A stretch of 64,000 nt of DNA from Brachyspira intermedia PWS/A (GTDB lineage Bacteria > Spirochaetota > Brachyspiria > Brachyspirales > Brachyspiraceae), in the NCBI RefSeq assembly GCF_000223215.1, contig NC_017243.1:186001-250000 (forward strand), written 5' to 3'. The position numbers and the translations under genes are program-made. The notes under the pieces are model-generated. The model did not search any database. It saw nothing but the letters and a program-made list of their open reading frames with translations, and was not told the DNA's origin. The first letter of the stretch is position 1, and every line of letters begins with the position of its first letter. Positions 10,086-32,854 of this stretch are shown here, piece by piece.

Positions 10086-10445
10086 ATTATTTTTTCCTAA
10101 ATTATATTTACACCCTACCCGTATTATAAATATAACAATTATTAAAAATAAATCAAATTATTTAATAAAAATTGTTATATCATTTTGAAAAATGTTTGTC
10201 CGATTTCGGTTAATTTGAAAAACGGTCAAAATTTTTATGTTATTGATAAAAAATATTTATTTGTTATTTAAAATATTTATCCTAGTTTAGAATAATTTTT
10301 ATTTTATTATTGCTAAAAAATTGTTCGCTTACAATGATGACAAATCAATTTTACATATATCTACAATTTTTTATTATTATACTAATCTCCAATAAATTAG
10401 TCAACAAATTGACCAATTTATAGTCTATATTTTAATTATATTTAA
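10086..10445. other. mraY-tmk intergenic region with a long-loop hairpin
   Basis: No gene is seen in these 360 bp. At 10314-10373 an 11-bp perfect stem (TAAAAAATTGT against ACAATTTTTTA) closes a loop of about 38 bases. Read on the minus strand its edge, AGCGAACAATTTTT then TAGCAATAATAAAA, is shared with the leader of the uptake operon at 30425-30512. A second inverted repeat lies at 10392-10421 just past the mraY stop, without a T run. The rest is AT-rich and should contain the tmk promoter on the minus strand. Confidence 0.5.
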
Positions 10446-12613: not shown

Positions 12614-12711
12614 ATACCCTGTCCTTATTGATAATAATTACTAATTATATAGTTATTTTATAAAAAATCAATACTAAATAATAATTTTTAAACAAAAAAT
12701 TGAGAAGATTT

Positions 12712-13288
12712 TAAATCGAGCATCTATCAGCTTTATCTGATAGAGTTTTTAAAGCGATATTTTTTATATATAATAAGAAGTTTATAGCTAGCAATTTTAA
12801 AGCTATAAATAAGCAGCTGATAACTTTAGTTGTCAGTTATTAAAAAATAAAAAATCGAGCGTCTATCAGCTTTATCTGATAGAGTTTTTAAAGCGAGATT
12901 TTTTATATATAATAAGAAGTTTATAGCTAGTAATTTTAAAGCTATAAATAAGCAGCTGATAACTTTAGTTGTCAGTTATTAAAAAATAAAAAATCGAGCG
13001 TCTATCAGCTTTATCTGATAGAGTTTTTAAAGCGAGATTTTTTATATATAAGCAAAAATAAAAAATCGAGCGTCTATCAGCTTTAGCTGATAGAGTTTTT
13101 AAAGCGATATTTTTTATATATAATAAGAAGTTTATAGCTAGCAATTTTAAAGCTATAAATGAGCAGCTGATAACTTTAGTTGTCAGCTATTTTTGAGCTC
13201 ATTTATAGCTAGCAATTTTAAAGCTATAAATGAGCAGCTGATAACTTTAGTTGTCAGCTATTTTTGAGCTCATTTATAGCTAGCAATA
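12712..13288. repeat. Tandem array of 139-bp hairpin-rich units (gap 12614-13357)
   Basis: Near-identical units begin with TCTATCAG at 12723, 12862, 13001 and 13073: two steps of 139 bp, then a shortened 72-bp unit. The end is two copies of a ~72-bp unit containing GAGCTCATTTATAGCTAGC. Each unit holds three perfect or near-perfect hairpins: TCTATCAG/CTGATAGA, TTTATAGCT/AGCTATAAA and AGCTGATAAC/GTTGTCAGCT. No coding frame is present. A single related unit recurs at 19631-19766. The array ends at the terminator of the first protease gene and starts ~100 bp upstream of the flavin reductase start codon. Confidence 0.85.
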
Positions 13289-13296
13289 ATGAAAAA

Positions 13297-13333
13297 AAAA
13301 TCAGACTGCCATTTATAATAACAATCTGATTTT
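13297..13333 (-). terminator. Terminator of protease gene 1
   Basis: AAAATCAGA (13297-13305) pairs perfectly with TCTGATTTT (13325-13333); read on the minus strand the stem is followed by a run of T. It lies 25 bp past the protease stop codon. Confidence 0.7.
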
Positions 13334-13357
13334 ATTTTTTATTATCTATATATCTTA

Positions 13358-14629
13358 TTAATCAATTACTTTATCTATATAAAATAATTCGTCTGTTAAA
13401 TTAGCTCTTTGATATTTAATTGAAGAGTTCAAGTTATCTGCTTTCTTTATAGTAAGATTTACAACATCTTCTTTGTTAGCAAGTCCTGCTGTTGTATTTA
13501 CAGAATTATTTATCACAACAGAAAGTCCTGTTTGTCCTAATTGTCTTGTTAATAATTTATTACCGCTTATATTATTATTAGCAGTGCTATAAACTACTAA
13601 TGACTTAGGCAATAAAGGTATGCTTCCATTTTGATTAAAGTTTTTATCAGTTGGATCTATAGGAGCTATATTTAGTCCTTGAACTTCATTTTTACTGACT
13701 CCTTCTATCCAATTAAGCAAAACAGTATCCATATCATTTCCAAGACCATATTTTGATGTAATATTTAGAAGCCTTTGTTCACTTGTTAATGAAGGATCAG
13801 AATGTGCTATTTCTTTATAAATATTAAAGTTTCCGCCTGTTCTAGCATCAAGCCATTTCATAAACATTGATGAAGAAGCATAACTAAGTAATACATGACC
13901 AGGAGTAAATACAAAACTCCAATCAGTGTACATAAAATACCAAGAGTAAAAAGAATAATAAGGATTATTTATGAAAAAATTTATTCTCGAATCAGTAAGA
14001 GTTGATGAAAATAGATGAGATGTAGATTCTGAAAGTGATTCATTAAGCCATATATCCATTGCTTTATTTTTGAGCATTGCATTGTTATAATAGTTAATTA
14101 AATGCTGTAATTCATGCATCATAAGTCCTATTGTACTTTCACTGGTAGGAACATTAATATGTAAATATTCTCCAGGTACTCCAGACTTACCGTATATTAA
14201 ATCATTGGCACTAAAATATCCTCCTGTTATTGATGTGGTTATATTTGTATTAAGGTTAGCCATTAAAAATATTACTTTTCCATTTCCGTCAAAATCAGGA
14301 ATTTCTCCATATATTTCTATTTCTTTAGGTATGTAATTTTCAAACTCTCTTAAAAAAGATAATATATCTCCTTTTGTGATGCCTTTATCAATCTGACTTT
14401 CTTCTACATAAATAATTGCATTTGCTGATTCAGCTAGCTTTTTAAATGTCCCTTCAACAGCAATCATAGCATCTGTTTTGCCGTCATTTATTTTATAATA
14501 ATATGTTTTTCTTATGGCGTTATTAGGTTCATAATATGTTATATCACTTACAGAAGGTGCTGTAACTTTATTACCGCATGAAGCAATAAACATAAAGATA
14601 ATGAATAAAAATATGTAACTTTTCTTCAT
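13358..14629 (-). CDS. Lipoprotein zinc metallopeptidase, M30-like (paralogue 1 of 5)
   Basis: A 423-residue predicted lipoprotein protease. The signal peptide ends in lipobox F-I-A-S-C with Cys 18. The zinc site is M-M-H-E-L-Q-H-L-I-N (HELQH at 172-176), followed by W-L-N-E-S-L-S-E (E197/E201), one of which is the likely third ligand; this layout resembles the hyicolysin (M30) group. Other conserved blocks are E-I-E-I-Y-G, D-G-N-G-K-V-I-F-L-M-A and G-E-Y-L-H. The C-terminal ~100 residues are beta-rich. AAGGAATAACTT lies before the ATG. It is divergent from the small lipoprotein at 14815 across a 185-bp region with a palindrome. The substrate is unknown. Confidence 0.8.
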   Translation of the reverse strand: MKKSYIFLFIIFMFIASCGNKVTAPSVSDITYYEPNNAIRKTYYYKINDGKTDAMIAVEGTFKKLAESANAIIYVEESQIDKGITKGDILSFLREFENYIPKEIEIYGEIPDFDGNGKVIFLMANLNTNITTSITGGYFSANDLIYGKSGVPGEYLHINVPTSESTIGLMMHELQHLINYYNNAMLKNKAMDIWLNESLSESTSHLFSSTLTDSRINFFINNPYYSFYSWYFMYTDWSFVFTPGHVLLSYASSSMFMKWLDARTGGNFNIYKEIAHSDPSLTSEQRLLNITSKYGLGNDMDTVLLNWIEGVSKNEVQGLNIAPIDPTDKNFNQNGSIPLLPKSLVVYSTANNNISGNKLLTRQLGQTGLSVVINNSVNTTAGLANKEDVVNLTIKKADNLNSSIKYQRANLTDELFYIDKVID

Positions 14630-14653
14630 AAGTTATTCCTTATAATTTTTGAT

Positions 14654-14682
14654 TTAAGCAAATAATAATATTATTTGCTTAA
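14654..14682. promoter_or_regulatory. 29-bp perfect palindrome in a divergent promoter region, unit 1
   Basis: TTAAGCAAATAAT (14654-14666), a central base pair step and its exact reverse complement up to 14682 lie between the divergent starts at 14629 and 14815. The position, 25 bp from the protease start codon, suits an operator or a leader hairpin. The same sequence with one changed base occurs in unit 2 and a degenerate one in unit 3. Confidence 0.5.
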
Positions 14683-14814
14683 TAGTAAATTTTTTTACTT
14701 ATTATTACAATATGAAATTATCTAATATCTTATAAAATTAATTTTTTATTAATATTGAATAAATTTAGAATAGATGTTATTGTATTTTTTATAATAAAAT
14801 TATTAGAGGTAAAA

Positions 14815-15282
14815 ATGAATAAAAAAGTAAAATATATTATTTTTATTATTTCTGTATTAATTTTTATTTCAGGATGTAAAAACAATGCTACAAATCCCAG
14901 CACTTTTGAAGAAATAGGAAAATATAGAGGAACTTGGGTTGCAGACAAGTGTGAGGCTATTGATTTTAATACTGATAAATGGATTGAGAAAGAATATCCA
15001 ATATCTATTGAAATAAATAATGATACTGATGTATTAATTATGAATGTTCCTGTTGATTCCGTTAAATATTTAAAAGATACTATTGATACTTTTGATTTAT
15101 ATGTTTCAGTCGACAAAGCACCGCTATTACCGCCCCCTGAAATAACTGGTACAGTTTCTGAAGTTTATTATAGAATGGCATTCAATAGTTACAATTCAGC
15201 TACAATGGTTATGATTATAAAAACTACGGATAATATTAATTCTTCCATTTTTAGCTTGATAAGATGTTCATTAAAAAAATAA
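14815..15282 (+). CDS. Small GTW-motif lipoprotein (partner 1)
   Basis: A 155-residue predicted lipoprotein: MNKKVKYIIF start, lipobox I-S-G-C with Cys 21, an Asn/Thr linker and then G-K-Y-R-G-T-W (35-41) opening a beta-rich domain. The start is ATG 14815, which has AGAGG 6 bp upstream; the frame runs 20 codons further upstream but that stretch is the promoter region, conserved in the next unit. G-x-W near the start of a small all-beta domain is reminiscent of lipocalin-type barrels; this is a weak structural analogy only. It is divergent from protease 1 and convergent with protease 2, with its own strong terminator. Confidence 0.75.
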   Translation: MNKKVKYIIFIISVLIFISGCKNNATNPSTFEEIGKYRGTWVADKCEAIDFNTDKWIEKEYPISIEINNDTDVLIMNVPVDSVKYLKDTIDTFDLYVSVDKAPLLPPPEITGTVSEVYYRMAFNSYNSATMVMIIKTTDNINSSIFSLIRCSLKK

Positions 15283-15307
15283 GTTAATATTTTATTATAT
15301 GTAAAAA

Positions 15308-15336
15308 AACCTGCTCTATATATGAGCAGGTTTTTT
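15308..15336 (+). terminator. Terminator of small lipoprotein 1
   Basis: AACCTGCTC (15308-15316), loop TATATAT, GAGCAGGTT (15324-15332) then T run: a perfect 9-bp stem, with an A run on the left that makes it usable in both directions. Confidence 0.85.
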
Positions 15337-15382
15337 ATTATTATAAAAATTGTAAAATCAGTCTGACAATTACAATCTTATT

Positions 15383-16717
15383 TTATTGTTTTTTGATATT
15401 TTTTTCATCTTCCTCAGTAATTACTTTATCTATGAAATATTCTCTATCTTGTAAATTGAATCTTTGATATTTAATTGAAGAGTTCAAATTAGCTGCTTTC
15501 TTTATAGTAAGCTCTTCAACATTTGCTTTATCAGCAATTACTGCTGCTGCCAAATTTTGTCCTTGATTTTCAGAATTATTTATTACAACAGAAAGTCCAG
15601 TTTTTCCTAATGGTCTTGTTTCTAATCTACCGCTGGTTGTTATTTGAGGATTATCAGCAGTACTATAAACTACTAATGACTTAGGCAATAATGGTATTTT
15701 TCCATTTATATTAAATTTTGGATCAGTTGGATCTATAGCAGATAGCTTTAGTCCTGGAACAACTCCATTGTTTATATCTGCTATCCAATCAAGCAATACA
15801 GTATCCATATCATTTGCAAAACCATGTTTTGATAAAACATTCATAAGTCTTTGTTCGCTTGTTGGTGCAGAAGGAGAATGTGCTATTTCTTTATAAATTT
15901 CCTGCTTTCCGCCTGTTTTACTATCAAGCCATTTCATAAATATTGATGAAGAACCGTAACTCATCAATATATTTCCATATCCTCCAACTGGGACTGTTCC
16001 TTGAGGAGTACCGTCAGTATATACTAAATTCCAAGTGTAAAAAGAATAATAAGTAGATGTGTTAAAAATATATTCTCTTTCTTTAGCAATAGGTTCTGAA
16101 AATATAAGAGAAGTAGATTCTGAAAGTGCTTCATTAAGCCATATATCCATTGATTTGCCTTGCATTAGATTGTTATAAGCGTTAATTAAATGCTGTAATT
16201 CATGCATCATAATACCCAATGTTATATCAGAAACAGGAAGATTAACATGTAAATATTCTCCAGGTTCTCCGTTCTTACCATTAATTAAATCAGATGGCTG
16301 AAAATATCCTCCCAGTCCTGTTGTAGTTACATTTGTATTAATATCAGCCATTAAAAATATTACTTTTCCATTTCCGTCAATATCAGGAATTTCTCCATAT
16401 ATTTCTATTTCTCTAGGCAGGTAATTTTCAAATTTTCTTAAAAAAGATATTACACCAGCTTTTGTGATGCCTTTATCAATCTGACTTTCTTCTACATAGA
16501 TAATTGCATTTGCTGATTCAGCTATCTTTTTAAATGCTCCTTCTTTAGCTATCATACTTTGATCTTTGTTATCCTTTATACTATAAGTATATGTTTTTAT
16601 TATCGTATTATTAGGATCATAATATGTTATATCACTTACAGAAGGTGCTGTAACTTTATTACCGCATGAAATAATAAACATAAAAATAATGAATAAAAAT
16701 ATATGACTTTTCTTCAT
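15383..16717 (-). CDS. Lipoprotein zinc metallopeptidase, M30-like (paralogue 2 of 5)
   Basis: A 444-residue paralogue of the previous protease, nearly identical over its first ~35 residues (lipobox F-I-I-S-C, Cys 18). The zinc motif HELQH is at 172-176, followed by W-L-N-E-A-L-S-E. Compared with paralogue 1 it has an insertion around residues 235-245 (T-P-Q-G-T-V-P-V-G-G) and a longer C-terminal tail ending D-E-K-N-I-K-K-Q. AAGGAATAACTT precedes the ATG. It is divergent from the small lipoprotein at 16903 and convergent with the one at 14815. All catalytic residues are intact, so it is probably functional. The substrate is unknown. Confidence 0.8.
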   Translation of the reverse strand: MKKSHIFLFIIFMFIISCGNKVTAPSVSDITYYDPNNTIIKTYTYSIKDNKDQSMIAKEGAFKKIAESANAIIYVEESQIDKGITKAGVISFLRKFENYLPREIEIYGEIPDIDGNGKVIFLMADINTNVTTTGLGGYFQPSDLINGKNGEPGEYLHVNLPVSDITLGIMMHELQHLINAYNNLMQGKSMDIWLNEALSESTSLIFSEPIAKEREYIFNTSTYYSFYTWNLVYTDGTPQGTVPVGGYGNILMSYGSSSIFMKWLDSKTGGKQEIYKEIAHSPSAPTSEQRLMNVLSKHGFANDMDTVLLDWIADINNGVVPGLKLSAIDPTDPKFNINGKIPLLPKSLVVYSTADNPQITTSGRLETRPLGKTGLSVVINNSENQGQNLAAAVIADKANVEELTIKKAANLNSSIKYQRFNLQDREYFIDKVITEEDEKNIKKQ

Positions 16718-16741
16718 AAGTTATTCCTTATAATTTTTGAT

Positions 16742-16770
16742 TTAAGTAAATAATAATATTATTTGCTTAA
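16742..16770. promoter_or_regulatory. Palindrome in the divergent promoter region, unit 2
   Basis: The same 29-bp palindrome as at 14654-14682, with one arm carrying GTAAAT instead of GCAAAT (a G-T pair if transcribed). The whole 185-bp spacer is almost identical to that of unit 1, showing recent duplication or conversion of the regulatory region. Confidence 0.5.
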
Positions 16771-16902
16771 TAGTAATTTTTTTTACATATTATTACAATA
16801 TGAAATTATCTAATATCTTATAAAATTAATTTTTTATTAATATTGAATAAATTTAGAATAGATGTTATTGTATTTTTTATAATAAAATTATTAGAGGTAA
16901 AA

Positions 16903-17382
16903 ATGAATAAAAAAGTAAAATATATTATTTTTATTATTTCTGTATTAATTTTTATTTTAGGATGTAAAAACAATGCTACAAATCCCAGCACTTTTGAAGA
17001 ATTAGGAAAATATAGAGGAACTTGGGTTGCCGATAATGTTTATATGCTGGATCTTTCGAATGATCAATTTTTACAGTCAGGAAATGGAATGACTATTAAA
17101 ATAAATAGCGATACGGATACAGTAATTGATAATATTGTTCCTATTTCAATTAGGCATTTACCTGATACAGTTGATAGTTATTATTTATATATTTCGACTG
17201 ATGATGTTCCTCCTCAGTATTTATCAAAGATTACTGCGGAAGGTGGACAAGTTAATGGAGCTTATTATAAACTGGAATTTACTAGTCATAATTCACTCAA
17301 AATATATATGATTCTTCAATGTAGAGCAGGATTAAACCCTTTTAATTTAGTAATACAAAAAGCTGACTTAAGAAGTAATTAA
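16903..17382 (+). CDS. Small GTW-motif lipoprotein (partner 2)
   Basis: A 159-residue predicted lipoprotein. The first ~45 residues, including lipobox L-G-C (Cys 21) and G-K-Y-R-G-T-W-V-A-D, match partner 1 almost exactly; beyond that the two diverge sharply. This one instead matches partner 3 (T-I-K-I-N-S-D-T-D, H-L-P-D-T-V-D, A-Y-Y-K-L-E-F-T-S). The start with AGAGG upstream is ATG 16903. The mosaic suggests gene conversion of the 5' part between neighbours. It is divergent from protease 2 and ends in its own terminator. The function is unknown; I infer a partner role from the repeated pairing. Confidence 0.75.
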   Translation: MNKKVKYIIFIISVLIFILGCKNNATNPSTFEELGKYRGTWVADNVYMLDLSNDQFLQSGNGMTIKINSDTDTVIDNIVPISIRHLPDTVDSYYLYISTDDVPPQYLSKITAEGGQVNGAYYKLEFTSHNSLKIYMILQCRAGLNPFNLVIQKADLRSN

Positions 17383-17402
17383 TAATTTTGATGTATATAC
17401 AA

Positions 17403-17437
17403 AATAACCTGCCCTATATATGAGCAGGTTATTTTGT
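17403..17437 (+). terminator. Terminator of small lipoprotein 2
   Basis: AATAACCTGC (17403-17412) pairs with GCAGGTTATT (17424-17433), a variant of the terminators after partners 1 and 5. Confidence 0.75.
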
Positions 17438-17460
17438 TTATAAACCATTACAATCTTATT

Positions 17461-18801
17461 TTATTGTTTTTTGATATTTTTTTCATCTTCTTCAGTAATT
17501 ACTTTATCTATGAAATATCCTCTGTTTTGTAAATTGAATCTTTGATATTTAATTGAAGAGTTCAAGTTAGCTGCTTTCTTTATAGTAAGATTTTCAACAT
17601 CTGCTGTCTCAGCAATTCCTTCATATGATTCTTGATTTACAGAAGTATTTATTACTGCAGAAAGTCCTGTTTGTCCTAATGGTCTTGTTAATAATTTACC
17701 GCCGCTTGTTATTTGAGGATTATCAGCAGTGCTATAAAGTACTATTGACCTAGGCAATAAAGGTATGCTTCCATTTATATTAAATTTTTGATCATCTGGA
17801 TCTATAGCGGATAGCTTTATGCCTGGAATATCTCCATTGTTTATACCTTCTATCCAATTAAGCAAAACATCATTCATATCATTTCCAAGATTATATTTTG
17901 ATAAAACACTCATAAGTCTTTCTTCGTCTGTTAATGAAGGATCAGAATGTGCTATTTCTTTATAAATTTCCTGCTTTCCGCCTGTTTTTAAATCAATCCA
18001 TTTCATAAACATTAATGAAGAAGCGTAACTAATAAATATATTATCGTCTCCTCCAACTGAGACTGTTCCTTCAGGAGTGTTGTCAGTATATAATAACTTC
18101 CAAGTGTAAAAAGAATAATAAGTAGATGTGTTAAAAATATCCTCTCTTTCTCCAATTAGAGGTTCTGAAAATATAAGAGAAGTAGATTCTGAAAGTGCTT
18201 CATTAAGCCATATATCCATTGCTTTGCCTTGCATTAGATTGTTATAAGCGTTAATTAAATGCTGTAATTCATGCATCATAGTACCTACTGTGTCATTATT
18301 AGTAGGAACATTAACATGTAAATATTCTCCGCGTACTCCTTCCTTACCGAAGATTAAATCAGACTGATAAAAATATCCTGCCATTGCTGTTGTAGCTTCA
18401 TTTGTATTAATGTTAGCCATTAAAAATATTACTTTTCCATTTCCGTCAAAATCAGGAATTTCTCCATATATTTCTATTTCTCTAGGCAGGTATTTTTCAA
18501 ATTCTCTTAAAAAAGATATTACACCCTCTTTTGTGATGCCTTTATCAACATAACTTTCTTCTACATAAATAATCGCATTTGCTGATTCAGCTATCTTTTT
18601 AAATGCTCCTTCAGCACCTACAAAAGTACCAGTTATGCCATCATAAAGATTATAAGGATATGTTTTTATTATCGTGTTATTAGGGTCATAATATGTTATA
18701 TCACCTATGACTTCTCCTGAATTTGAAGGCTGTGTAATTGTATTGCCACATGAAATAATAAACATAAAATTAATGAATAGAAATATATAACTTTTCTTCA
18801 T
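17461..18801 (-). CDS. Lipoprotein zinc metallopeptidase, M30-like (paralogue 3 of 5)
   Basis: A 446-residue paralogue: lipobox F-I-I-S-C (Cys 18), a slightly longer linker, HELQH at 177-181, W-L-N-E-A-L-S-E downstream. It is closest to paralogue 2, sharing its C-terminal end D-E-K-N-I-K-K-Q and the T-P-E-G-T-V-S-V-G-G insertion. A good ribosome-binding site (AAGGAATAACTT) precedes the ATG. It is divergent from small lipoprotein 3. The palindrome in its upstream region (about 18827-18855) is degenerate compared with units 1 and 2. Active-site residues are intact. Confidence 0.8.
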   Translation of the reverse strand: MKKSYIFLFINFMFIISCGNTITQPSNSGEVIGDITYYDPNNTIIKTYPYNLYDGITGTFVGAEGAFKKIAESANAIIYVEESYVDKGITKEGVISFLREFEKYLPREIEIYGEIPDFDGNGKVIFLMANINTNEATTAMAGYFYQSDLIFGKEGVRGEYLHVNVPTNNDTVGTMMHELQHLINAYNNLMQGKAMDIWLNEALSESTSLIFSEPLIGEREDIFNTSTYYSFYTWKLLYTDNTPEGTVSVGGDDNIFISYASSLMFMKWIDLKTGGKQEIYKEIAHSDPSLTDEERLMSVLSKYNLGNDMNDVLLNWIEGINNGDIPGIKLSAIDPDDQKFNINGSIPLLPRSIVLYSTADNPQITSGGKLLTRPLGQTGLSAVINTSVNQESYEGIAETADVENLTIKKAANLNSSIKYQRFNLQNRGYFIDKVITEEDEKNIKKQ

Positions 18802-18989
18802 AAGTTATTCCTTGTAATTTTTAATTTAAGTAAAAAATAATATTATTTATTTAATAGTAATTTTTTTTACTTATTATTACAATATGAAATTATCTAATAT
18901 ATTATAAAATAAAATTAATTTTTTATTAATATTGAATAAATTTATAATAGATGTTATTGTATCTTTAATACTAAAATTAGAGGAAAAAA

Positions 18990-19448
18990 ATGAATAAAAA
19001 ATTGAAATATATTATTTTTATTATTTCTTTATTAATTTTTATTTCAGGCTGTAAAAATAATGCTACAAGTCCTAGTACTATTTATGGTATAGGAAAATAT
19101 AGAGGAACTTGGTTTGCAGATAATTTTGATATGCTGGATCTTTTTAGGAATCAATGGGTACAGTCAGAAACTGGAATGACTATTAAAATAAATAGCGATA
19201 CTGATATGGTAATCAATAATATTGTGCCTACTTCAATTAAGCATTTACCTGATACAGTTGATACTTACCATCTATATATTTCGACTGCTGATGTTCCTCC
19301 TGAGTATCCATCAAGCCAAATTGTTAAAGCTTATTATAAACTGGAATTTACTAGTTATAATTCAGTCAAAGTAACTATGGTTATTCAATTTATAATGGAT
19401 GGAAACTCTATTAATATGGCAATACAAAAAGCTGAATTAAAAAAGTAA
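18990..19448 (+). CDS. Small GTW-motif lipoprotein (partner 3)
   Basis: A 152-residue predicted lipoprotein with Cys 21 in I-S-G-C and G-K-Y-R-G-T-W-F-A-D at 35-44. The body is close to partner 2 (M-L-D-L, M-T-I-K-I-N-S-D-T-D, N-N-I-V-P). AGAGGAAAAAA precedes the ATG. It is divergent from protease 3 over 188 bp. The following hairpin (19477-19512) is a mutated form of the terminators after the other partners. Confidence 0.75.
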   Translation: MNKKLKYIIFIISLLIFISGCKNNATSPSTIYGIGKYRGTWFADNFDMLDLFRNQWVQSETGMTIKINSDTDMVINNIVPTSIKHLPDTVDTYHLYISTADVPPEYPSSQIVKAYYKLEFTSYNSVKVTMVIQFIMDGNSINMAIQKAELKK

Positions 19449-19630: not shown

Positions 19631-19766
19631 GATAAACGAGCAGCGTATAACTTTAGTTGTCAGCTATTAAAAAATAAAAAATCTAGCGTCTATCAGCTTT
19701 AGCTGATAGAGGTTTTAAAGCGAGATTTTTTATATATAATAAGAAGTTTATAGCTAGCAATAATAA
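19631..19766. repeat. Single hairpin-rich unit related to the 139-bp array (gap 19449-19836)
   Basis: One unit of the array at 12712-13288, with the same hairpins (TATCAG...CTGATA, AACTTTAGTTGTCAGCT, TTTATAGCTAGC), lies between partner 3 and the end of protease 4. As at the first locus, it directly abuts a protease terminator (AATCAG 19770-19775 with CTGATT 19800-19805). Before it come a degenerate terminator and ~110 bp of plain AT-rich sequence. No gene is seen in the gap. Confidence 0.75.
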
Positions 19767-27522: not shown

Positions 27523-28257
27523 TTAATTAATTATAGAAGATATGTCTTTTAATATTTCATCATAATTTACATCAGGGAATATATCTTTTAATTCATTTTT
27601 ATTTATATCTTTTTTATGTATAGGATTATAATTGGAGTTTTTTGAAAATTTTATTATATAATCAGTTTTTGTAATTGATACTATATCATGAGAAGATAGT
27701 ATAATAATTTTATTTTTTTTATTGGCTTCTAAATAATGAAAAAGTTTTACTTTGTTTTGAAAATCTAAGGAACTATCAGGCTCATCTAAAAGAATGATAT
27801 TTGTATTTTTGCATAATGTCTTAGCTAAAAATACTAAAGCTCTTTCGCCTCCGGATAAGTTTTCAACATTTCTATTTTGTAAATGCAGTATGTTCAAAGA
27901 CTCCATCACTTCCAAAGATTTAGTCCTTATTTTTTTCTCATCTGAAAATATGCCATATTCTTTATGTCCCATCATCACTACTTCAATTGCTCTAAAAGGA
28001 AAATTCACATTTAAAAACTGAGGCATAAAGGCTATATCATTAAATATTACTTCTTTGGAAAGAGTTTTATTATTGACATTTATAATTCCGCTTCTTTTTA
28101 CACTGCTGTCCATTATGAGAGATTTTATAAATGTACTTTTTCCGCTTCCATTAGCTCCTAAAAGTATATATATTCCATTTTCATTTATACTAAGCTCATC
28201 TAATTGCAGAACTTTTTTGTTTTTATATTCTAAAATCAAATCTTTACAATATATCAT
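27523..28257 (-). CDS. ABC transporter ATPase (FecE/BtuD type)
   Basis: A 244-residue nucleotide-binding subunit. Walker A is G-A-N-G-S-G-K-S-T (residues ~33-41), the signature is L-S-G-G-E, Walker B is I-I-L-L-D-E-P-D and the switch histidine lies in L-S-S-H-D-I. It powers the permease encoded immediately upstream (22-bp gap), third gene of the operon 30401-27523. The family serves iron siderophore, haem, cobalamin or molybdate uptake. The substrate cannot be deduced from the ATPase. AGAG precedes the start. Confidence 0.92.
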   Translation of the reverse strand: MIYCKDLILEYKNKKVLQLDELSINENGIYILLGANGSGKSTFIKSLIMDSSVKRSGIINVNNKTLSKEVIFNDIAFMPQFLNVNFPFRAIEVVMMGHKEYGIFSDEKKIRTKSLEVMESLNILHLQNRNVENLSGGERALVFLAKTLCKNTNIILLDEPDSSLDFQNKVKLFHYLEANKKNKIIILSSHDIVSITKTDYIIKFSKNSNYNPIHKKDINKNELKDIFPDVNYDEILKDISSIIN

Positions 28258-28279: not shown

Positions 28280-29272
28280 TTAATCATATTTACTTCTTCT
28301 AAATAAAAATACAAATAAAAATATTGCTCCGAATAATGAAGTAGCAACAGATATAGGAAGTTCACCGGCAATTCTTCCGCCGAACAGAGGCATCTTTATT
28401 ATAGACCTTATAACTAAATCACATAATAATAAAAGTATTGCACCGCCGAATGCAGAATTGATTAGCAATTTTGAAGAAGCTGAAGTTTTCCATATTATTC
28501 TTGAAAGATGAGGTACACCCAATCCCACCCAGCTTATTATTCCTGTGGCAAGTACAGACATAGACATTAATATTGAAACTACAAAAAGTAATTGAATCCT
28601 AAAAACTCTAATATCCTTTACCTTATCATAAGCATGAAGCTCTCCCAATGTTAGAGCATCTATCTTTGATGACTGCATTAAAAAGAAAAATAGTGCTATT
28701 ATAAATACAGCTAATAATATTAATGTGTATCTTATATTAGTATTTCCTAAACTGCCCATAAGCCAAAAAGTTATTTCTCTAAGTTTACCAATTTCTGCGG
28801 CCACTTTTAATATAGAAAGCCCTGAAGAAAATACTGAATTAATTACTATACCCATAAAAAGCAATTTTAATACAGATGAACTTCTGAATGAAAAAAACAT
28901 AGGTATTAGTACGGCTATAAAAGTAAATAATGGTGCTATTAAAAATATAGGCAATGAGAATACTATAGCGAAAGCAGCCCCGAATGCTGAACCTGATGAT
29001 ATGCCTAAGAAATAAGGATCAACCAATGGATTTTGAAAACATGATTGGCATATAACTCCGCATACTCCAAGTATGGCTCCGCTTGATACCGCTAAAAGTA
29101 TTCTTGGAAGCCTTACATTGAGTATTGCTATTGCTTTATTAATATCTTCCGTTTTATTAAAAAATATATTGATTATTTCTAAAGGCGAAATATCCCATGA
29201 ACCTATAAATATAGATAATATAAATAATATTACTAGTATAGATGATAATATTATTAATGATTTATTTTTCAT
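28280..29272 (-). CDS. FecCD-family ABC permease
   Basis: A 330-residue membrane permease with about ten helices. Family signatures are S-S-G-A-I-L-G-V-C-G, Q-N-P-L-V-D-P-Y-F-L-G-I-S-S-G and G-L-G-V-P-H-L-S-R. It forms the homodimeric channel of a BtuCD-type type II importer. It starts 4 bp after the binding-protein stop codon and is probably translationally coupled; its own Shine-Dalgarno is weak. The substrate is a metal chelate or metallate taken from the binding protein. Confidence 0.92.
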   Translation of the reverse strand: MKNKSLIILSSILVILFILSIFIGSWDISPLEIINIFFNKTEDINKAIAILNVRLPRILLAVSSGAILGVCGVICQSCFQNPLVDPYFLGISSGSAFGAAFAIVFSLPIFLIAPLFTFIAVLIPMFFSFRSSSVLKLLFMGIVINSVFSSGLSILKVAAEIGKLREITFWLMGSLGNTNIRYTLILLAVFIIALFFFLMQSSKIDALTLGELHAYDKVKDIRVFRIQLLFVVSILMSMSVLATGIISWVGLGVPHLSRIIWKTSASSKLLINSAFGGAILLLLCDLVIRSIIKMPLFGGRIAGELPISVATSLFGAIFLFVFLFRRSKYD

Positions 29273-29276
29273 ATTT

Positions 29277-30401
29277 TTAATTCTTTATTTGTTCAAAAAA
29301 TGGTTCTAATTTATGAAGTACAATAAGTTTATCAGTTTCTTCTATACCGAATATGTCTGACATGTAATTATCATATACTTCTCTAATATTAACATTGTCA
29401 GGCATGTAGTATATATAGCTAAATAGAAGAAGCTGTACAGGAAGTAATAATTTAGGATCTGACCACCATAAAATCTGTCCCATACTATATACTCTATTAT
29501 TTTTTACTGCATTAATATTTTGAAATACTGCATTTTTTGTATATGTTTCTACAGCTTTTGAATATTGAGGAGAATCTATCATTGCTATGATGTCAGGATT
29601 CATTTCCAATATTTCTTCAGCACCGAGAATAGGCATTTCTGATTTTTCATAAGCATTGCTGATGCCTAATATTGATGTTGTATATGCTGCTCCGCCATAA
29701 TCTTTTCCATGAACATATCCTGCTCCTGTTTCTGAATCTGTAAGTCCCAAGAAAAGCATTTTATCTGTATCATTATCTTTTTTGAATGATGAAGCTAAAT
29801 CAACATATTCTTGAAGTTTTTTTATAAGTTCTTCTGATTTGTCTTCAGCATTAACAACTTTTGATATTATTCTTATATTATCATAGTAAGAGTTTAAATT
29901 TGTTGCTATAGTATGATCATTCAATATTATCACTGGTATTTTAAATTCATTTTCTATTCTATTAATTAATTCCTGATGATAACTGTTTTCAGATAAAGAA
30001 CCATAAGGCACTATTATAATAGCATCGGGAGAAACCTCCAATATTTTTTCAAAATTATAACTGCCGTATCCTGCCCATCCTACATTTGGAATTGATAATA
30101 TATTTGTTACTATATAAAAGTTATCGGATCTATCTGTATTATATGGTCCTGACTGAGGATATACTCCACCTGTAGCTGCTAATAAATCATCTTTTCCCAA
30201 TGCTTTTAAAGTTTGAGGTATGAAGCCTCTATCTATTGATATTATTTTTTTTATGTCTTTTTTTAAAGTTACTTTTCTTCCAAAAGCATCTGTAACAGTT
30301 ATAGTATCTGCTGAATTATTTTTATTATTTGCATCTTTGGTATTATTACATGAAATAAAAGATAAAGCTGTAAATAATATAAGCAATAAGTATTTTTTCA
30401 T
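29277..30401 (-). CDS. Substrate-binding lipoprotein of a FecBCD-type importer
   Basis: A 374-residue class III (TroA/BtuF-fold) binding protein with lipobox S-F-I-S-C (Cys 19). The first lobe starts T-V-T-D-A-F-G-R-K-V-T-L, typical for siderophore/cobalamin/metallate binders; the second lobe ends with N-A-V-K-N-N-R-V-Y and W-W-S-D-P-K-L-L-L. First gene of the three-gene operon with permease (4-bp gap) and ATPase. GGAG lies 8 bp before the ATG. An unusual folded leader (30425-30512) precedes it. The exact ligand (ferric siderophore, haem, cobalamin or molybdate/tungstate) is unresolved. Confidence 0.88.
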   Translation of the reverse strand: MKKYLLLILFTALSFISCNNTKDANNKNNSADTITVTDAFGRKVTLKKDIKKIISIDRGFIPQTLKALGKDDLLAATGGVYPQSGPYNTDRSDNFYIVTNILSIPNVGWAGYGSYNFEKILEVSPDAIIIVPYGSLSENSYHQELINRIENEFKIPVIILNDHTIATNLNSYYDNIRIISKVVNAEDKSEELIKKLQEYVDLASSFKKDNDTDKMLFLGLTDSETGAGYVHGKDYGGAAYTTSILGISNAYEKSEMPILGAEEILEMNPDIIAMIDSPQYSKAVETYTKNAVFQNINAVKNNRVYSMGQILWWSDPKLLLPVQLLLFSYIYYMPDNVNIREVYDNYMSDIFGIEETDKLIVLHKLEPFFEQIKN

Positions 30402-30424
30402 TTTTTATGCTCCTATTTTTTATT

Positions 30425-30512
30425 ATTGCTAATAAAAATTGTTCGCTGCCTATGGCAAAGGTTATGTCAAGTAAACTTACCAGAGGATAACAATTTTTAT
30501 ATTTTTAGCAAT
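30425..30512 (-). promoter_or_regulatory. Structured leader of the uptake operon (candidate RNA element)
   Basis: On the minus strand, 24 bp before the binding-protein start, a long closing stem (8 + 11 bp with a 5-base bulge; arms 30425-30443 and 30489-30512) encloses 45 bases containing two smaller hairpins, AAGT-TT-ACTT and TGCC-ATA-GGCA. No T run follows, so it is not a plain terminator of the upstream TPR gene. It shows no cobalamin-riboswitch B12 box. It could be a riboswitch-like sensor, a protein-binding leader, or a small palindromic repeat. Confidence 0.5.
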
Positions 30513-30547
30513 GAAAATTATTTAGATTATTTTTTATAAATTATATT

Positions 30548-32854
30548 TCAATTATCTAATTTGCAAAGTTTAATACTTTCATCATTAATTATTCTTCTTA
30601 TAATTTCTATATTAGAATCATCAAAGTTTTTAGGGAAGTATATGCTTTTTATTTTTATATTATTGTTATTTAAAATTGCTCTGTAAGCATAATCTTCTGA
30701 ATTATAGCTGAATATAGAAAGTAAAGTGTCATAATGAATATTATCTTCTTTAGTGATAAACTTAGCAGTTCTTCCGTAAACATTTTCTTCTTTATTATAA
30801 TTTTTTGTTTTAATTATAATTGAATCTGAAGCTTCATACTCTATACATATGCTATTATCATATAAATTATTAATAGATGAATTAAATGAAGCAAAATAAA
30901 TATTCATTTTATTATTAAAATGTTCTATAACAGGTTTTATTGCTGTTAATTTTCCTGCTTCCATAGAGTTTTCTAAAATATTGAATATATTTTCAGTTTC
31001 TGTTTTTTTATCTAATAATAATTTAAGAGTGTCTGTATTATAGTTAATATTTTTGTATAGAGTGCAAGAAGAATTATTTTTATGTATATTATGGAACTCT
31101 ATAGTTTTATTTAAAGATTTTTCAAATAAGTCTAAAAAGTCATTATATTTTATTATATTTCCTTTCAATAAAGTATATGATAATAAAAATATATTGTAGC
31201 TTGCAAAATTATCTTCTCTTAAATCAAAATTATCTATATATCTATTGTAAGTATCAAGAAGTGAATCATAATCTTTTTTCAAATAATATATAACAGCCAA
31301 ATTATTATAAAGCTCGAAAGATGATTTTTTACTTTCTATTAATTTATTATAACATATAGAGGCATTATCATAATCTTTTATTCTATAGTATGATTGAGCC
31401 AGCATATTATAAATGTCATCATCTCTTCTATCAATTCTTGATGCATATTCTATAACTTTATTATAATCTTTATTATCAAAACATATTGAAAGTAATTTAT
31501 CATAATGTTTAAATGAATTAGGATTTACTTCTATAATTTTATCTGCAATACTCAAAGCATTATCATATTCTTCTAAATCAAAGTATAGATTAAATAATAT
31601 TTCATAAGAATTGCTGTATGAAGGATTAAGCTCTAATGCTCTATTTAAATAAATTAATGATTTTTCTTTTTCGCCTAAATAATAGTAGGATAAACCTATA
31701 CCGTTATATGAATCAGCATTATTATTATTTATATCTATTGCTTTATTGAAATTCTCTATCGCATTATTATAATCTTCTAAATTATAATAAGCTAGTGCCA
31801 AATTATTATAAGCCTTATAATATCTGTCATTAATTTCTATAGATTTATTGAAATAGTTTATAGCTTTGTCATATTCTTCATTAGATGAGTAGCATATACC
31901 TATAAAGTTATAAGCCTTATAAGCATTTGGATTTTTTTCTATCACTCTTTCAAAACATTCTATAGCTTCATAATAATATTTTTTAGAATAATAGCTTATT
32001 CCTAATTTATTATAATCGGTAAAAGTATTAATATCTAATTTTTTAGCCTTATCAAAATAAAGTGCCGCTTTATCGAACATCTTTCTATTGAAATAAACTA
32101 AAGCTAAATTATTATAGGCATTGGCATATTTAGGATTAATATCTATAGCTATATTGAAATATTTTATAGCATTATCATAATCTTTTAGGAATGAATATAC
32201 TGCTCCCAAAGTATTAGCTATTTTGCATGACTTACCATTATACTGAAGGAATTTAGTAAAGCATTCTATTGCCTTTTCATAATTATTAATATTATAATAG
32301 CTCATTCCAAGCATATCATAAGCTTTAAAAACTCTTTCATCTAAAGATTTTGAATGTTCAAAAAATTCTATTGCTTCATTATATTTTTTATTTTTATAAT
32401 AGAATAAAGCTAAATTATTAAAAGCCTTATCATATTTAGGATTAATTTCTATAGCTTTATTAAAATTTTCTATAGCATTAGTATAATCTTTTTTTTCAAA
32501 ATAACTTATTCCAAGCAGATTATATGCTTTAAAAGAATTAGGGGTGATTTTTAAAGTTTCATTGAAACATTCTATAGCTTTGTCATACTGTTTTATAGCA
32601 TGATAACTTATACCAAGAAGATTATAAGATTTAAAAGTTTTTATATCTACTTTTTTAGCTTCTTCAAAATATCTTACAGCATCTTCATACTCTTTAAGCT
32701 CAACGCATACCTGTCCTTTATATAGATTTGCTCTATAATTTTTAGGAACTTTTTTTAATATAACATCTAATATTTCAAGAGTCTGATGATAATCTTCATT
32801 ATTAAGTCTGTATGAAACTTCATTTAAAAGATTTTCCATCTTTGTATTGTACAT
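30548..32854 (-). CDS. Large TPR-repeat protein
   Basis: A 768-residue protein with about fifteen tetratricopeptide repeats from residue ~10 to ~560 (recurrent A-Y-N-N/L-L-G-I-S-Y-x-x-x-K/N-x-Y-D-x-A-I-E-x-F), then ~200 residues without repeats that are beta/alpha mixed (Y-N-K-E-E-N-V-Y-G-R-T-A-K-F, I-I-R-R-I-I-N-D-E). No signal peptide is seen. TPR solenoids mediate protein interactions. The C-terminal domain is not one I recognise. The start has GGGG 7 bp upstream; an internal ATG 5 codons later is possible. It lies on the same strand as the uptake operon but is separated from it by the structured leader. Confidence 0.88.
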   Translation of the reverse strand: MYNTKMENLLNEVSYRLNNEDYHQTLEILDVILKKVPKNYRANLYKGQVCVELKEYEDAVRYFEEAKKVDIKTFKSYNLLGISYHAIKQYDKAIECFNETLKITPNSFKAYNLLGISYFEKKDYTNAIENFNKAIEINPKYDKAFNNLALFYYKNKKYNEAIEFFEHSKSLDERVFKAYDMLGMSYYNINNYEKAIECFTKFLQYNGKSCKIANTLGAVYSFLKDYDNAIKYFNIAIDINPKYANAYNNLALVYFNRKMFDKAALYFDKAKKLDINTFTDYNKLGISYYSKKYYYEAIECFERVIEKNPNAYKAYNFIGICYSSNEEYDKAINYFNKSIEINDRYYKAYNNLALAYYNLEDYNNAIENFNKAIDINNNNADSYNGIGLSYYYLGEKEKSLIYLNRALELNPSYSNSYEILFNLYFDLEEYDNALSIADKIIEVNPNSFKHYDKLLSICFDNKDYNKVIEYASRIDRRDDDIYNMLAQSYYRIKDYDNASICYNKLIESKKSSFELYNNLAVIYYLKKDYDSLLDTYNRYIDNFDLREDNFASYNIFLLSYTLLKGNIIKYNDFLDLFEKSLNKTIEFHNIHKNNSSCTLYKNINYNTDTLKLLLDKKTETENIFNILENSMEAGKLTAIKPVIEHFNNKMNIYFASFNSSINNLYDNSICIEYEASDSIIIKTKNYNKEENVYGRTAKFITKEDNIHYDTLLSIFSYNSEDYAYRAILNNNNIKIKSIYFPKNFDDSNIEIIRRIINDESIKLCKLDN

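Follow-up and report, generated by a model that had tools for sequence, protein, structure and literature searches.

Upstream of a FecBCD-type transport operon in Brachyspira intermedia PWS/A lies a sequence that can fold into a bulged hairpin. The question is whether this sequence is a leader dedicated to that operon, as the first-pass annotation proposed, or a member of something more widespread. The window, i.e. the whole stretch of 64,000 nucleotides analysed, lies in the 3,304,788-bp contig of a two-contig genome (total 3,308,048 bp); the available text of the genome paper gives a chromosome of 3,304,788 bp and a plasmid of 3,260 bp (PMC3163572).

The bulged stem proposed at 30425-30512 is real. 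The minus-strand fold of 30405-30530 had an MFE of -23.1 kcal/mol, relative to a mean of -15.6 kcal/mol for shuffled sequences (z -2.6); only 2 of 200 shuffles were as good as the native fold. The stem lies 24 nt from the ATG of the binding-protein gene at 30401, in accordance with the 24-bp spacing first noted. Its length had been given as 19 bp. The stem itself is borne out, but 7 bp of extra outer pairing are peculiar to the window copy and not a general trait: they are mutated in the orthologous leader of one other species (genome G022) and missing in that of another (G024). The statement that the sequence has no T run was wrong, since AATTTTTAT is present in the 3′ arm.

A BLAST search with the window copy revealed 49 places at E≤1e-3 in its own genome; of the 26 Brachyspira species genomes, 21 gave matches. 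A length of exactly 71 nt was shared by 44 copies, which came from 32 independent sites. After removal of three (two with an irregular mid-region, one near-duplicate), the 41 others, a set of regular copies that does not include the window copy, were aligned and used to build covariance model R1. R1 detected 86 copies in the own genome. Across species it detected 10-87 copies in 18 of 26 genomes and 0-2 in the remaining 8 (at least one match in 24 of 26), with the genomes that supplied model copies matching partly by construction. In an outgroup control of 80 OppD-region loci from other bacteria, there was no match to R1 (0/80). The covariance search in related genomes, suggested earlier as a check, found a genus-wide family whose helices covary strongly. 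The sequence upstream of FecB belongs to this dispersed Brachyspira hairpin element, of which it is a single copy, and is not a dedicated FecBCD leader.

The 3′ arm had also been seen near mraY/tmk, apparently closing a different loop. The arm (AGCGAACAATTTTT..TAGCAATAATAAAA) does recur, at 10302-10329; the loop, however, belongs to a second, complete but decayed copy, of which the repeat at 10310 is the right end. The genes flanking this copy encode MraY/Glycos_transf_4 and thymidylate kinase (Pfam). Its recurrence greatly exceeds chance expectation: the exact two-part arm occurs four times in the genome and not once in a backwards control. Hairpins of other subtypes are present at 12711-13290 and 19674-19743, with the same loop, a similar tail, and outer arms of GCTATAAATGAGC type and AAAAAATC type, respectively. 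The 12711-13290 array is antisense to both flanking genes and was classed as codirectional-antisense. The features are listed in the table.

Table. Hairpin element copies, their parts and neighbouring genes in the window (R1, covariance model)
Feature	Position	Strand	Basis
Element copy 5′ of FecB-like gene, 79-nt core	30422..30500	-	R1 60.7 bits, E 4.1e-10
5′ outer arm ATAAAAATTGT	30490..30500	-	R1 positions 1-11
Inner stem and TTTA loop, imperfect in window copy	30462..30485	-	R1 positions 16-39
Variable 3′ bulge, second small hairpin; 8 nt longer than model	30447..30461	-	R1 alignment; bulge length differs among copies
3′ outer arm ACAATTTTTAT	30432..30442	-	R1 positions 51-61
Conserved 3′ tail TAGCAATAAT	30422..30431	-	41-copy alignment and R1
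Shine-Dalgarno AGGAG, 7 nt past tail	30410..30414	-	Sequence
Periplasmic binding protein, FecB type	29277..30401	-	Pfam PF01497, E 4e-26
FecCD permease	28280..29272	-	Pfam PF01032, E 4.8e-65
ABC ATPase, same operon as FecB/FecCD	27523..28257	-	Pfam PF00005
Second copy, decayed, between mraY and tmk	10306..10373	-	R1 40.6 bits, E 7.6e-6
Five related hairpins in array, other subtype	12711..13290	+	R1 27.7-52.2 bits
Array members	12711-12777, 12847-12916, 13058-13127, 13153-13219, 13224-13290	+	
Related hairpin, outer arm AAAAAATC, between convergent genes	19674..19743	+	R1 54.4 bits

Two repeats of other kinds occur in the window. At 13311-19285 a gene and its flank, together ~2.08 kb, occur three times in tandem, a gene amplification with more diverged relatives near 20-24 kb. 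Six tandem 102-nt units at 1005-1814 lie within ORF 1058-1831, which may encode a repeat protein of variable length.

From 5′ to 3′, the element consists of ATAAAAATTGT, a GA step, GC, a 10-bp inner stem with a TTTA loop, a 3′ bulge of variable length (7 to about 25 nt), GC, GA, ACAATTTTTAT, and the tail TTAGCAATAAT; pairing extends as far as the first T of the tail. The outer inverted arms are R1 positions 1-11 paired with 51-61. The conserved letters of the 41-copy consensus are the TTTA loop, the GAGC...GCGA internal-loop box, and the 3′ tail. Pairing is found in 94.6% of the 943 cells of the alignment, and two-sided changes in 11 of 23 pairs. Cells with two-sided changes numbered 66; shuffling gave 17.7 on average and in none of 500 rounds as many as 66, and slid controls gave 3-11. 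An inner stem that closes a 4-nt loop, with at least 8 of its 10 pairs of the Watson-Crick type, was seen in 114 of 174 copies, vs. 69 of 3480 shuffled inner regions; the loop was TTTA in 101 of these 114. Of the 41 copies, 31 retain the GA/GA internal loop, four have TT/AA in its place, and two have TC/GG, replacements that would restore standard pairs (TC/GG with one G-U). In all DNA examined there were 455 distinct tails, 205 of them preceded by an outer stem and inner hairpin. GAGC/GCGA was present in 56 of these 205, whose outer arms are of two or more unrelated types (ACAATTTT and GTTTATT); in backwards DNA, 56 of 224 tails had such a structure and none had GAGC/GCGA. One copy in the own genome, at G000:C2:1200210-1200270 (L105:1511-1571), is fully symmetrical (GTCTGACAAG TTTA CTTGTCAGAC, with matching arms) and lies just 5′ of a Shine-Dalgarno sequence; the gene product starts MSYFEEGLQLFRETQFEKASELF.

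Comparison of orthologous sites with and without the element, together with changes in tandem copy number, shows gain and loss at single loci. The oppC-oppD gap holds intact copies in six genomes (G007, 2; G014, 1; G022, 3; G023, 2; G024, 1; G025, 5) and decayed copies in G021 and, by eye, G017; it is empty in the own genome (G000) and in the other species read, including G010. In a three-gene tree G000 is nested among the carriers, some of those branches being weakly supported (0.63-0.64), and it therefore probably lost the insert. The leader of the DUF362 gene contains the element in G000, G022, G025, G007, and G023; the close relative G024 has no copy there, nor have the 18 other orthologues that could be read (the G003 leader was unreadable, and no match was obtained in G019). 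Six of the 26 genomes yielded FecB orthologues; the element precedes those of G000, G022, and G024, with a different inner hairpin in each, and is missing in G004, G011, and G017. In the mraY-tmk gap it is present in G000, G007, G022, and G023 among 14 readable species. In G025 the element is missing from this gap between flanking AATAATAAAA-like direct repeats (L071 vs. L070), a pattern as expected for deletion by slippage or excision. Alignment of occupied and empty sites revealed no consistent target repeat, and the flanks are very AT-rich. Tandem arrays reach seven copies. In the leaders of aldo/keto reductase and flavodoxin genes (L186, L170, L161, L165, L181), array copy number differs between species, and in most of them the final copy is directly adjacent to AGGAGCAATTATG or a sequence close to it. 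The copy number, the empty orthologous sites, and the tandem arrays support the other suggestion of the first-pass annotation, a small mobile palindrome.

The 174 unique copies from 15 genomes form 114 arrays at 63 independent sites. Among codirectional genes, 102 copies were sense and 10 antisense, a count that omits 14 copies inside called ORFs and two at locus edges. By site, 32 were sense and 7 antisense of 39 codirectional (p 7e-5); the others were divergent (11), convergent (11), or unclassed (2), three sites with mixed calls being given the majority class. For R1 copies of all subtypes in the own genome, 21 sites were sense and 7 antisense among 41 (p 0.013). A replication-strand bias was considered and rejected: on the assumption that the terminus is at the midpoint, 24 of the 41 own-genome sites were lagging (p 0.35). 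Random positions and strands without covariation had been named as the pattern that would speak against a structured leader; the copies are scattered, yet they are mostly sense and covarying. The term "structured leader" therefore retains some use in a generic sense, but not for a leader particular to FecBCD.

A start codon with a Shine-Dalgarno sequence was found within 300 nt on the sense side at 34 of 63 sites, vs. only four on the antisense side, none of them closer than 110 nt. At 9 of the 63 sites the distance from the tail to the start of the Shine-Dalgarno sequence is -2 to +1 nt; in the rest of the 34 the distances are thinly spread. By the rule used, 54 of 63 sites do not abut a Shine-Dalgarno sequence, the window copy being 7 nt away from its own. 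The pattern AGCAAYAATAGGA-N3-9-ATG had 72 matches in the 26 genomes vs. one backwards, in a control that ignores the natural frequency of SD-ATG pairs. Of the thirty pattern loci read, several (L251-L253, L258, L267, and L270) seem to be matches by chance or within coding sequence; in most of the rest the pattern is preceded by a hairpin. Further hairpin subtypes (e.g., GTGAGCCGAAGC...GAGGCGAACAT) are among these loci (L250-L279); they too end in TAGCAAYAAT, followed directly by AGGA and the ATG of various genes.

The explanation that we favour, with a probability of about 0.7, is that the copies belong to a non-coding hairpin element, dispersed in Brachyspira, which has reached new sites, has multiplied in tandem, and would form an mRNA hairpin in leaders and operon gaps. 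On the sequence evidence, it is best read as a MITE/ERIC/bcr-like element probably transcribed in UTRs and between cistrons; a transcribed hairpin at these places is its likeliest role. Sense copies in 5′ leaders or between cistrons would be transcribed within the mRNA. The oppC-oppD inserts are expected on the mRNA because they lie between a stop codon and the next Shine-Dalgarno sequence. The transcript of a sense copy would fold into the hairpin, followed by an open AU-rich tail. Hairpin and tail may insulate the ribosome-binding site, and the hairpin may alter decay or read-through between cistrons, by analogy with intercistronic hairpin repeats elsewhere. The element presumably senses no ligand, and the enzyme that spreads it would recognise fold and tail instead of any fixed terminal sequence.

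The rival that fares best is a purely DNA-level mobile palindrome (MITE or REP-like) that folds as ssDNA during transposition, its orientation bias resulting from selection against harmful antisense insertions. This is possible, at clearly lower odds. The element is palindromic and dispersed, and empty sites were seen. Two indications of selection on the RNA were also rejected. The sense strand folded better in 118 of 174 copies, but shuffled cores were equally biased (MFE advantage -1.06 kcal/mol per site vs. -1.29 in shuffled cores). G-U-like mismatches outnumbered A-C-like ones 37:8 (15:3 by site), but the excess vanished against column shuffles (G-U minus A-C cells, 10 vs. 10.5 expected), so that this comparison shows no RNA preference. 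On the other hand, selection alone does not obviously explain the placement of tails at Shine-Dalgarno sequences, and the own genome has no Y1 transposase: RAYT-type Y1_Tnp (PF01797) gave 0 matches there, vs. 5 of 14 control genomes positive. Spread driven by RAYT was rejected on the same result. Retro-transposition by a cellular reverse transcriptase was rejected as well. RVT_1 (PF00078) is found in 7 of 26 genomes, not including the own genome and including several copy-poor ones; its presence does not follow element copy number. Carriage by phages or plasmids was rejected because BLAST gave no match when the FecB region was searched against phages and one copy against plasmids. An exact match to the tail is present in four viral contigs, but their R1 scores of 23.6-24.9 bits are far below those of real copies.

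In a second rival, the copies form a regulon of cis-acting RNAs: a shared RNA-binding protein reads the GAGC/GCGA box, the UUUA loop, and the UAGCAAUAAU tail and controls translation of many genes, the sites having spread by duplication and selection rather than transposition. The conserved internal-loop and loop letters within covarying helices, the sense bias, and the tails adjoining Shine-Dalgarno sequences are in its favour. However, many copies are convergent or antisense, gene functions are incoherent, and presence at a given gene shifts between close species (DUF362 in G023 and G024; oppD in G000 vs. five close relatives). We regard this regulon as doubtful.

It is very unlikely that the copies are ordinary bidirectional intrinsic terminators that converged on one sequence by chance. 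The outer arms carry an A-tract and a T-tract, and 11 of 63 sites lie between convergent genes; but a scan of 29200-30700 calls one terminator-like site, elsewhere than the element, sequence is shared outside the helices (tail, loop, and boxes), and copies show a sense bias and lie next to start codons and within operons.

The genes at start-codon-proximal sites encode an SDR, an ankyrin, an FkbM methyltransferase, GntR, DUF362/Fer4, HAD, and OppD proteins, EF-Tu-like and HflX-like GTPases, an aldo/keto reductase, a ferredoxin, a flavodoxin, and several unknown proteins. Pfam analysis of 17 downstream genes, together with the orthologue comparison, revealed no association with one pathway. Rfam gave no match over the window at the gathering threshold, in line with the remark that no riboswitch signature was recognisable; at E≤1, four loci gave only a sub-threshold snoZ43 (E 0.52). 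A riboswitch is unlikely because the downstream genes are mixed, the element turns over between close species, the inner hairpins of the FecB copies are unlike, and Rfam has no match; with half of the FecB orthologues lacking the element and tandem arrays of species-specific copy number, a ligand-sensing or metal/cofactor leader of the FecBCD operon has almost nothing left in its favour beyond its structure, its leader position, and some redox proteins among the neighbours (DUF362/Fer4, ferredoxin, flavodoxin, aldo/keto reductase).

The element shows two features of a MITE: its dispersed copies are short and non-coding with inverted terminal arms, and show gain and loss at orthologous sites (oppC-oppD, DUF362, FecB). 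Riboswitches and other Rfam cis-regulatory RNAs are likewise structured leaders with covariation; they differ by the points just given. REP/REPIN elements with RAYT are palindromic, intergenic, and present in many copies, as is the Brachyspira element. In the latter, however, the 41-copy consensus has no GTAG or CGTC tag at the end of the palindrome, and the genome lacks the Y1 transposase. ERIC, YPAL, NEMIS, and RUP are non-coding inverted repeats of 70-300 bp that lie next to genes, are transcribed, and affect their neighbours. They are listed as MITEs in the text available from PMC3733652. The Brachyspira element resembles them as a short non-coding inverted repeat beside genes; it differs in that the outer arms of its conserved core are only 11 bp and in that no target duplication and, in searches for PF01797 in the own genome and PF00078 in the genus, no parent insertion sequence was found. 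The bcr1-bcr18 repeats of the Bacillus cereus group are dispersed and intergenic, some MITE-like and some with conserved secondary structure, and about half of them are in mRNAs as parts of UTRs or operon gaps, according to the available text of PMC3446304. The likeness lies in dispersed intergenic repeats and, judging from the oppC-oppD position, probable presence in mRNA. Sequence and host differ; moreover, the Brachyspira tail adjoins the Shine-Dalgarno sequence at some sites, and its stems vary while loop, boxes, and tail stay. The element is not described in the available texts of Brachyspira genome papers PMC3163572, PMC3532143, PMC2650404, and PMC2897892, nor otherwise in the literature searched.

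The guess of a riboswitch at a single operon is replaced by a genome-wide feature that bears on the evolution of leaders and operon gaps in Brachyspira. The genome of B. hyodysenteriae was reported, in the text available from PMC2650404, to contain no insertion sequences, which raises the question of what moves the element. A further reading, possible but not likely, is a mobile superfamily defined by structure: elements with unlike stems would have in common one fold, the GA boxes, the UUUA loop, and the 3′ tail, and would insert preferentially in sense orientation immediately 5′ of Shine-Dalgarno sequences, through an enzyme that would read fold and tail (as RNA or ssDNA), in a genus where few insertion sequences, if any, have been recognised. 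Insertion with the tail placed at the Shine-Dalgarno sequence would be an uncommon preference for a repeat and would give rise to new 5′ UTRs directly. If this superfamily reading is true, the elements would be portable 5′-UTR modules.
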